Assembly (NCBI GenBank): GCA_003225055.1
Contig: QIAU01000088.1
Coordinates: forward strand, 1 to 34,067
From: Acidobacteriota bacterium
Lineage (GTDB): Bacteria > Acidobacteriota > Terriglobia > Terriglobales > Acidobacteriaceae
Reading direction: 5' to 3'
DNA: 34,067 nt
Position numbers and translations under genes: made by a program. Under the pieces are notes generated by a model that saw only the letters and a program-made list of their open reading frames with translations, was not told where the DNA came from and did not search any database. Shown here piece by piece: positions 13,802 to 16,612 of this stretch (positions are counted from its first letter, which is position 1; each line of letters starts with the position of its first letter).

Positions 13802-15453
<1,652 letters not shown>

Positions 15454-15954
15454 ATGCAGGACCAGACCGAGACTCTTCAGCTGGGATCGCCAGCTCCGGA
15501 TTTCACACTTATGGCGGCCAACCGTCCGGGGGAGTTTTCCTTATCACGATTCCTGGCCGCAGGCACGCTGATCCTTGAATTCCTGCGCGGCACCTGGTGA
15601 AAGAACTGCGTGAAGCGCATGGCTCAGTTGGAGTCACGGAAGGGAGAGTTGGAGAGCGCCAGGGTCCAGGCGGCTTATATCGCGGCGGAGAAGAGCAACG
15701 GCTTTCACAAGCCGGCCGAGTTTCTCGAGAAGAATCCGGTTTCGTTTCCTTTCCTGCTTGACGAGGACCGCAGCGTGACGAAAGCCTACGGGCTGTATCA
15801 CCGGATAGGGCTGGACGCCATCAACATCGCGTATCCGGCGACTCTGGTCATCGATGGCGGTGGGACGGTCCGCTACATTTATCGCGGCAGCAATCAATTT
15901 GACCGGGCTCCAGTGGAACAAGTTCTTGCAACAGCAAGGAAATTGAAGAATTGA
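15454..15954 (+). CDS. Probable selenocysteine-containing redoxin (AhpC/TSA-like, UxxC)
   Basis: Read straight through, the frame encodes 166 residues with a thioredoxin-fold peroxiredoxin-like sequence. It starts QLGSPAPDFTLMAANRPGEF, then LILEFLRGTW at residues 39-48. A TGA codon at 15598-15600 is residue 49. It is followed by KNC, so the TGA stands where homologous redoxins have the first Cys of CxxC (here U49-K50-N51-C52). The frame continues unbroken through FHKPAEFLEKNPVSFPFLLD and YPATLVIDGGGTVRYIYRG to the stop at 15954. A hairpin with the spacing of a bacterial SECIS lies at 15620-15636. The product would be a cytoplasmic thiol oxidoreductase or peroxidase. The alternatives are a nonsense mutation or a sequencing error. 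No selA, selB, selC or selD is in this window. A start-proximal ribosome-binding site is weak. Confidence 0.72.
15620..15636 (+). promoter_or_regulatory. SECIS-like hairpin in the redoxin mRNA
   Basis: TGGCTC (15620-15625) pairs with GAGTCA (15631-15636), six pairs with one G-T, closing a five-base loop AGTTG. The loop starts 25 bases after the TGA and has G at its second position followed by U. Both fit the general description of bacterial SECIS elements (apical loop about 16-37 bases from UGA, G in the first two loop bases). The element lies inside the coding sequence, as expected in bacteria. The lower stem is poor. Confidence 0.55.
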
Positions 15955-15982
15955 CAAATTTTCGAGTTTCGTAGGAGGCGCA

Positions 15983-16612
15983 ATGAAACGAATAGTCGTC
16001 CTGCTCGCTGCGTTGTTACTAACGATTCCTACGGTAGCCGAGACCAACCCGTCTCTGCCGGCCGGAACTCCTCTTAAAGTAAAACTTGAGACTACCTTGG
16101 CTACGTTCATGACCAAAACCGGCGAGCCGTTTTCCGGCCGGATTATGGAGCCAGTGGTAGTGAACGGCAAGACCGTGATTCCCGTAGGCGCTAGCCTGCA
16201 AGGACATGTGACCAAGGTCAACGAGCCACGGCGCCTTGCGGGCAAGCCGACTATCGATATCCATCCCGAGAGCGTAGTGCTGCCGAACGGAGATAAGTTC
16301 ATCCTGAGTGCCACCCTGGTGGACACCAGCGTGCGCAACGGAAGCGATGTGAACGAGGAAGGCGAGTTCAAAGGTGCTGGGCATGATGCGAAAGACCTCA
16401 TGGAAGTAGGCGCTGGGACCGGTGGCGGCATGCTTGTCGGAGGTCTCGCGGGCGGTGGCAAAGGTGTGCTTGTGGGCGGCGCCATCGGCGCGACCGCTAC
16501 GGTCGTCCATTGGTTGTCCAAGCGCAGATCAGCGATTCTGCCGGCCGGAACGGAACTCACGATGGAATTGAACCGGCCGATGAGTATGAGTGCGGCGAGT
16601 GGGGGGAAGTGA
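15983..16612 (+). CDS. Exported protein of unknown function, TrbI-like beta region
   Basis: The start at 15983 has a perfect AGGAGG at 15973-15978 and gives a signal peptide (KRIVVLLAALLLTIPTVA). The 209-residue product contains a beta-rich part (LPAGTPLKVKLETTLA, IPVGASLQGHVTKVNEP, LPNGDKFILSATLVDTS). This resembles the short beta domain of TrbI/VirB10-type proteins but is too short for that family. A Gly-rich hydrophobic segment follows (GGGMLVGGLAGGGKGVLVGG, about 150-172) that could insert in a membrane. The end repeats the LPAGTELTMELNRP motif. It follows the redoxin by 28 bases, so they may share a transcript. No function is assigned. Confidence 0.75.
   Translation: MKRIVVLLAALLLTIPTVAETNPSLPAGTPLKVKLETTLATFMTKTGEPFSGRIMEPVVVNGKTVIPVGASLQGHVTKVNEPRRLAGKPTIDIHPESVVLPNGDKFILSATLVDTSVRNGSDVNEEGEFKGAGHDAKDLMEVGAGTGGGMLVGGLAGGGKGVLVGGAIGATATVVHWLSKRRSAILPAGTELTMELNRPMSMSAASGGK

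Follow-up and report, generated by a model that had tools for sequence, protein, structure and literature searches.

The locus raises the question of whether a redoxin reading frame interrupted by one TGA is a damaged gene, or whether the TGA is read as selenocysteine (Sec). The frame lies on the forward strand of the window, by which is meant the whole 34,067-nucleotide stretch of Acidobacteriota DNA that was analysed. Judging from sequence comparisons, the redoxin at 15454-15954 is almost certainly a selenoprotein, and the features of the gene on which the argument depends are as follows:

15454..15954, + strand: predicted selenoprotein coding sequence, 166 residues, terminal stop TGA included
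15598..15600, + strand: predicted Sec UGA (residue 49), at the first position of the UxxC in W-U-x-x-C; the 45 same-family orthologues have TGA (44) or TGC (1)
15607..15609, + strand: Cys52 codon; Cys52 is the predicted UxxC partner of Sec49 and lies at the peroxidatic Cys in alignments to the peroxiredoxins 2cx3 and 2ywn
15835..15837, + strand: Pro128 codon, at the thioredoxin-type (cis-)proline position; Arg there in peroxiredoxins

Translated, 15454-15954 (+) yields 166 residues and is interrupted by a single stop, the TGA at 15598-15600 (codon 49), which stands between the residues FLRGTW and KNC. The read-through protein matches Pfam Redoxin at 74.1 bits (cut-off 26.6) and Pfam AhpC-TSA at 71.4 bits (cut-off 26), and both matches span the TGA, bearing out the sequence-only reading of a single redoxin frame with one TGA at the first position of its CxxC motif. 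That reading had added that an ordinary gene caller would break the gene; the only piece of the frame in the list of open reading frames (at least 90 aa) is 15610-15954, 114 aa, opened by a GTG at 15610 directly 3' of the active-site Cys codon, so the remark fits that list. The terminal stop at 15952-15954 is also TGA, and a single redoxin message would thus carry both the Sec UGA and the stop UGA.

Conservation among the aligned orthologues is seen on either side of the TGA, with pN/pS of 0.40 upstream of it and 0.35 from codon +12 onward. Cys52 and Pro128 are invariant in alignments of 30 and of 35 sequences, and the motif W-U-P-N/T-C occurs in 28 of the 30, the first x being K in the window and R in G059, from the same genus. 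At residue 50 (15601-15603) there is therefore a basic residue adjoining Sec49 in these two, Lys in the window and Arg in G059, where the other 28 of 30 have Pro.

The codon-49 column was followed in three overlapping genome sets, whose counts are not independent. When the read-through protein was searched against 200 genomes of the same GTDB family, 43 matched at an E of 1e-46 or better, with TGA at codon 49 in 42 and TGC in 1. The addition of G001 (frame broken) and G061 (gene cut by the contig end), both with TGA, brings the orthologues to 45 of 200 genomes, 44 with TGA and 1 with TGC. G119 also has a second, partial match, which begins after codon 49 and was left out of the count. The next-best family matches, partial pieces aside, have about 33% identity among the matches listed. 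A phylum search (396 genomes, E<=1e-30) matched 11 genomes, all with TGA, of which 6 lie outside the family; SelB is over its cut-off in 6/6 of these and tRNA-Sec in 5/6. A scan of an 84,980-species collection with a pattern of two peptides, one of which carried the active site in its Cys form, found 37 loci. One of these (L093, 26% identical, motif absent) was dropped, and the other 36 comprise 35 with TGA and 1 with TGC; their taxa are given as Acidobacteriaceae, Acidobacteriales, Terriglobales, Terriglobia and similar. Homologues thus hold a Sec codon (44/45) or a Cys codon (1/45) at residue 49, as the earlier reading had anticipated, and the in-frame UGA at a redox position shows the alternation of Sec and Cys that marks selenoprotein families. 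Frames broken near or behind the active site were seen in L105/L090 (L105 being the G009 copy), L091 and L106.

The source genome, G000 (7.41 Mb, 301 contigs, estimated completeness 98.73), contains a tRNA-Sec at 69.4 bits with anticodon TCA (ARAGORN), the second-best match to the model (48 bits) being a tRNA-Ser. SelB scores 355.6 bits (cut-off 242.25), SelA 528.4 bits summed over two pieces (cut-off 267.9), and SelD 347.8 bits with one in-frame TGA in the context KAAG-U-ASKL. The genome therefore holds the tRNA-Sec(UCA), SelA, SelB and SelD that belong with bacterial selenoprotein genes, and on which the proposal of Sec at this codon had been made to depend. The TGA of SelD (C256:82082-83050; L012, L111) lies near the N-terminus, which would make SelD a predicted selenoprotein as well. 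The genome has 28 AhpC-TSA matches, and five besides the window's have one in-frame TGA at a redox position: L112 (C23), L114 (C195) and L118 (C23) in TxxU placement, and L119 (C232) and L136 (C135) in W-UxxC placement, the L136 frame stopping early, after its motif.

Across the family, 109 of the 200 genomes have SelB (E<=1e-60). Of the 44 that carry the TGA redoxin, 38 are SelB-positive and 6 belong to the 91 SelB-negative (Fisher p 8.5e-7, uncorrected for relatedness). All six SelB-negative TGA genomes (G029, G036, G071, G077, G092, G154) have a tRNA-Sec (66-76 bits) and SelA, and SelB fragments are seen in G036 and G077. The SelB search of G029, G071, G092 and G154 (84-99% estimated completeness) returned matches of about 400 aa only, which are taken to be EF-Tu-like, and with the G000 SelB as query these four genomes gave EF-Tu-like and other GTPase-like matches only. 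In G001 and G391, both with SelB and SelA, no tRNA-Sec was over the cut-off (44.9 and 45.3 bits). Assembly gaps likely lie behind the SelB or tRNA-Sec missing from these genomes.

Two features of the message lie directly downstream of the UGA:

15601..15633, + strand: codons +1 to +11 behind the UGA, the stretch with the strongest suppression of synonymous change (30-sequence codon alignment)
15620..15636, + strand: candidate bacterial SECIS hairpin with a 6-bp stem, 15620-15625 pairing with 15631-15636

The excess of synonymous identity over codon usage is 0.49 in codons +1 to +12 vs 0.066 elsewhere (30 sequences), and of all 12-codon windows in the gene the one that begins with the UGA is the highest, at 0.539 (median 0.074). 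A smaller excess (ratio 1.2-2.0) is found at codons -5 to -2 before the UGA. In agreement with this, pS in the codons right behind the UGA is 0.415 vs 0.69 and 0.73 in the other parts of the gene. The loop of the candidate hairpin, AGUUG, occupies 15626-15630 with 25 nt between the UGA and the loop; loops other than AGUUN occur in 6 of 30 sequences. The five pairs of its core (alignment columns 24-28/34-38, 15621-15635) hold in 98.0% of cells across 30 sequences and 97.8% across 46, and when the core is slid along the 46 sequences at most 46.5% of cells pair.

None of 500 shuffles of the 46 sequences reached the hairpin's percentage paired, its cells changed on both sides or its covariation score, whereas 103/500 reached its number of pairs changed on both sides and 95/500 its further pair types; related sequences can exceed such shuffles without any structure. 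Compensatory changes are seen in two pairs. Pair 25-37 occurs as G-C in 31 of the 46 sequences, G-U in 12 and A-U in 3, while pair 27-35 is U-A in 38, C-G in 2, G-C in 1 (L053) and mismatched in 5. The C-G form (L101, L102) turns the Glu60 codon into Gly, altering the protein and keeping the RNA pair. The hairpin alone folds at -5.8 kcal/mol and a 43-nt stretch at -11.2, the latter equalled by 37/200 shuffles, and against shuffled sequences the RNA downstream of the UGA does not stand out in folding energy (z -0.91, 0.25, 0.52). In a 2026 review, as far as its available passages go, the bacterial SECIS model has an apical loop of 3-9 nt, an upper stem of 4-16 bp, a G in the first two loop positions, a distance of 16-37 nt from the UGA and an MFE of <= -7.5 kcal/mol (PMC13188914). 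The candidate agrees with this description in loop, stem, G position and spacing, while on energy the hairpin alone (-5.8 kcal/mol) falls short of the -7.5 bound and the 43-nt stretch (-11.2) does not.

A similar element stands behind the UGAs of L119 and L136, again with a 6-bp stem and an AGUUG loop at 16 nt from the UGA; 41/60 bases behind the UGA are alike. A rule for this type of hairpin (loop [AG]?G[GT]T, 4-6 nt, stem of at least 5 bp), set after the first cases had been seen, is satisfied behind 47 of 56 Sec UGAs, most of which are orthologues, vs 83 of 3769 other TGA contexts (G000 loci). The nine Sec UGAs that fail it are six orthologues (five with the 27-35 mismatch, one with the loop AGGCU), L114, L118 and SelD. 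Two other structures were considered and set aside. A hairpin at columns 10-14/18-22 is 87-89% paired yet no better than shuffles, with covariation absent; a long stem at columns 4-11/28-36, overlapping the candidate, has some covariation, but the window and G059 (L036) each fail to form two of its pairs, so the hairpin at columns 24-38 is preferred. Rfam gave no family at its gathering score on the window, and PADLOC gave nothing at E<=0.001. With the Sec machinery, the conservation of the codon, and the downstream RNA constraint and hairpin in its favour, the selenoprotein reading first made from this one sequence appears well supported.

The lone TGC orthologue comes from G067 (L094; L086 gives the same alignment), the Edaphobacter aggregans SulCav MAG, estimated to be 100% complete and 6% contaminated. 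SelA had no match in this genome, the SelB search gave nothing beyond other GTPases (best 96.5 bits), and the best match to the tRNA-Sec model is a tRNA-Ser. The neighbours of the window's redoxin gene, an enolase gene and a gene for a 209-aa protein, flank the TGC copy L086 as well, and it is therefore at the same locus. Against the consensus of the hairpin (columns 24-38), G067 differs at 9 of 14 columns, where 46 Sec sequences differ at 0-3; over the 36 columns from the UGA it has 12 differences, where the Sec sequences have 0-11 (median 2), the one with 11 being the distant L053. By this comparison the downstream hairpin is decayed in the TGC form.

The whole explanation, that a UGA is read as Sec with the aid of a SECIS hairpin to make an enzyme of thiol/selenol-disulfide exchange, is very probably correct. 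With the ribosome at the codon-49 UGA, SelB carrying Sec-tRNA(Sec, UCA) would bind the hairpin at 15620-15636 (loop AGUUG), and Sec would be inserted in place of termination, yielding a single protein of 166 residues. The product would have a predicted PrxQ/AhpE-like fold with the motif W-Sec49-x-x-Cys52 and Pro128. The selenolate of Sec49 would attack an oxidised substrate, Cys52 would resolve the mixed intermediate to give a Sec49-Cys52 selenenylsulfide, from which the redoxin would be regenerated by thioredoxin or another such reductant.

What the enzyme does was approached through its predicted structure. An AlphaFold2 model built with 35 sequences (the window and the loci of the pattern scan) has a pLDDT of 90.4 and a pTM of 0.89, with low confidence around residues 111-130; the block 121-130, which contains Pro128, has a mean pLDDT of 72. 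The best solved match to the model is Bcp4/PrxQ (Z 23.9 over 156 residues), followed by AhpE (Z 22.5) and 2-Cys peroxiredoxins, with matches that cover almost the entire chain, so the model predicts a peroxiredoxin fold. The active site differs from that fold's usual one. In profile alignments to 2cx3 and 2ywn, the Cys of these peroxiredoxins lines up with Cys52, their Ser/Thr with Sec49, their Pro with Arg45 and their Arg with the invariant Pro128; the signature PxxxT(S)xxC/U is thus absent, with Arg45 and Sec49 at its Pro and Thr positions, and Pro128 stands where the active-site Arg of peroxiredoxins would be. This Arg is conserved in catalytic peroxiredoxins and has a role there. In an alignment to ResA, the GTWCPxC motif matches the redoxin centre directly, and Pro128, which may be cis, aligns with the Pro of DsbE 2b1k. 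The protein would therefore have a peroxiredoxin body with a thioredoxin-type centre. As the catalytic Pro, Thr and Arg positions of peroxiredoxins are all replaced, these residues suggest a thiol/selenol-disulfide oxidoreductase rather than a peroxidase, a reading that is reasonably probable although the nearest folds are those of peroxidases.

The main rival accepts the selenoprotein and makes it a peroxidase, in which Sec49 or Cys52 would reduce hydroperoxides and the other residue would resolve. It draws on the peroxiredoxin fold, with its best matches to PrxQ/Bcp and AhpE, and on Cys52, which takes the place of the peroxidatic Cys in the alignments to 2cx3 and 2ywn. Against it are the loss of PxxxTxxC (Arg45, Sec49) and the invariant Pro128 at the Arg position; moreover, the three TxxU genes of peroxiredoxin type in G000 might already serve this purpose. 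A peroxidase is accordingly possible and rather unlikely.

The alternatives that deny Sec altogether fare far worse. A pseudogene or an assembly error, with Cys49 turned to TGA by chance, would look alike in one genome, as a lone nonsense codon in a long frame, and the frame is indeed broken in a few relatives (L090/L105, L091, L106). It is largely contradicted, however, by the TGA at codon 49 in 44 of 45 orthologues, by purifying selection before and after the TGA (pN/pS 0.40 and 0.35), by the Sec machinery in the genome and by the decayed hairpin of the TGC copy, and is to be regarded as extremely improbable. The recurrence of the codon in many separate assemblies also upholds the initial argument that a chance nonsense mutation was unlikely. 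It could be proposed instead that the UGA is a true regulatory stop, giving two products, a 48-aa peptide and, by re-initiation, the 114-aa frame opened by the GTG at 15610; some termination is known to occur at Sec UGAs. Such a stop would nevertheless cut the redox motif apart, the GTG stands directly behind the motif, and the lone switch to Cys sits in a genome with no detected Sec machinery, which leaves this proposal with hardly any likelihood. Reading of the UGA as Trp or Cys by a suppressor tRNA is equally far-fetched, near-cognate read-through being possible in principle while the TCA-anticodon tRNA found is of the tRNA-Sec type and SelA, SelB and SelD are present.

The selenoprotein can be placed among known systems. 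In the available passages of the surveys, peroxiredoxin-like (Prx-like) selenoproteins with UxxC have been described since 2005, beginning with the Sargasso Sea (PMC1088965), and the GOS survey contains several Prx-like UxxC groups (PMC2398784); the table of the 2026 review lists a 'Prx-like thiol:disulfide oxidoreductase' (PF00578) and a 'Redoxin family protein' (PF08534), both with UxxC (PMC13188914). As the first description of this locus had held, UxxC redoxins are, on these listings, an established class of selenoproteins, and the kind is therefore already known. The window redoxin is ordinary in kind and belongs to this known bacterial type. As those sources describe the Prx-like UxxC selenoproteins, it shares with them distant peroxiredoxin homology and a thioredoxin-like UxxC instead of TxxU, a replacement borne out here by the Pfam matches and the 2cx3/2ywn alignment, and differs in having K, not P, after Sec; the comparison is with published descriptions of the class, whose catalogued representatives include WP_010940744.1 and HEU0032618.1. 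The Sec form dominates as in the tabulated Sargasso set (22 Sec, 4 Cys; PMC1088965), unlike Prx-like 1 and 3 in the GOS table, where Cys forms are far commoner (Sec to Cys, 225 to 2,740 and 68 to 2,608; PMC2398784) than the 1 in 45 of the window's orthologous group.

Compared with PrxQ/Bcp and AhpE (3hjp, 4x0x, 2ywn), the predicted fold is alike (Z 20.8-23.9, 19-23% identity), whereas the PxxxTxxC and Arg positions are replaced; assignment to the canonical peroxiredoxins was rejected, the fold agreeing and the catalytic positions not. The motif GTWCPxC is shared with ResA (3c71) and the Pro before the strand with DsbE (2b1k), but Sec replaces the first Cys, the best overall folds are peroxiredoxins and no signal peptide is seen by eye. 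The ResA model (NF002854) has a cut-off of 170 bits and gives the window protein 42.4. The model for the SelL-related redox protein (NCBIfam NF040769) matches each of the 35 members scanned at E<=0.001, and the window protein scores 39.5 bits against that model's cut-off of 120. With scores this low, both families were rejected; the window protein has 11 listed NCBIfam models, and 0 of them reach their cut-off. Within the same genome, the TxxU genes L112, L114 and L118 share the superfamily and an in-frame TGA at a redox position, though theirs falls three residues further on than the window's, at the peroxidatic position.

For the phylum, the consulted parts of a 2006 survey give Acidobacteria with 4 selenoproteins from 3 families (PMC1794560), and those of deep-Sep give 3 known selenoproteins in one acidobacterium (PMC12013277). 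No acidobacterial UxxC redoxin was found in titles and the starts of abstracts, and the titles, abstract starts and passages covered contained no description of this orthologous group, of the near absence of its Cys form or of the hairpin.

The gene also has a recurring setting, in which the two neighbours in the window are:

13802..15250, - strand: enolase (Pfam), divergent neighbour that usually adjoins the redoxin gene
15983..16612, + strand: 209-aa protein, often downstream of the redoxin gene

In 36 related loci (L057-L092), some of them cut by contig ends, the enolase is beside the redoxin in 32 and the 209-aa gene in 26. Enolase, redoxin and 209-aa gene (13802-16612 in the window) thus tend to stay together; the 209-aa protein matched no Pfam family.

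A broader reading, for which the chances appear evenly balanced, is that this is a 'Sec-locked' Terriglobales redoxin family, in which Sec is near-obligatory and Cys appears only upon loss of the Sec system, together with a lineage-wide SECIS dialect of the form (A)G(U/G)U. Cys replacement at the same locus with a decaying hairpin rests on one case; the dialect would mean that the host SelB uses a hairpin common to non-orthologous UxxC redoxins. If the dialect is real, it could be used to find further acidobacterial selenoproteins, and the single switch from Sec to Cys at an unchanged locus offers a natural experiment on the benefit of Sec and the decay of a SECIS. The six AhpC-TSA-type TGA genes, UxxC and TxxU, along with SelD, would link the thiol chemistry of G000 to its selenium supply. 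Acidobacteriota are abundant and mostly uncultured, and as a plain gene caller would split the gene, a conserved selenium-dependent enzyme of these bacteria would be easily missed.
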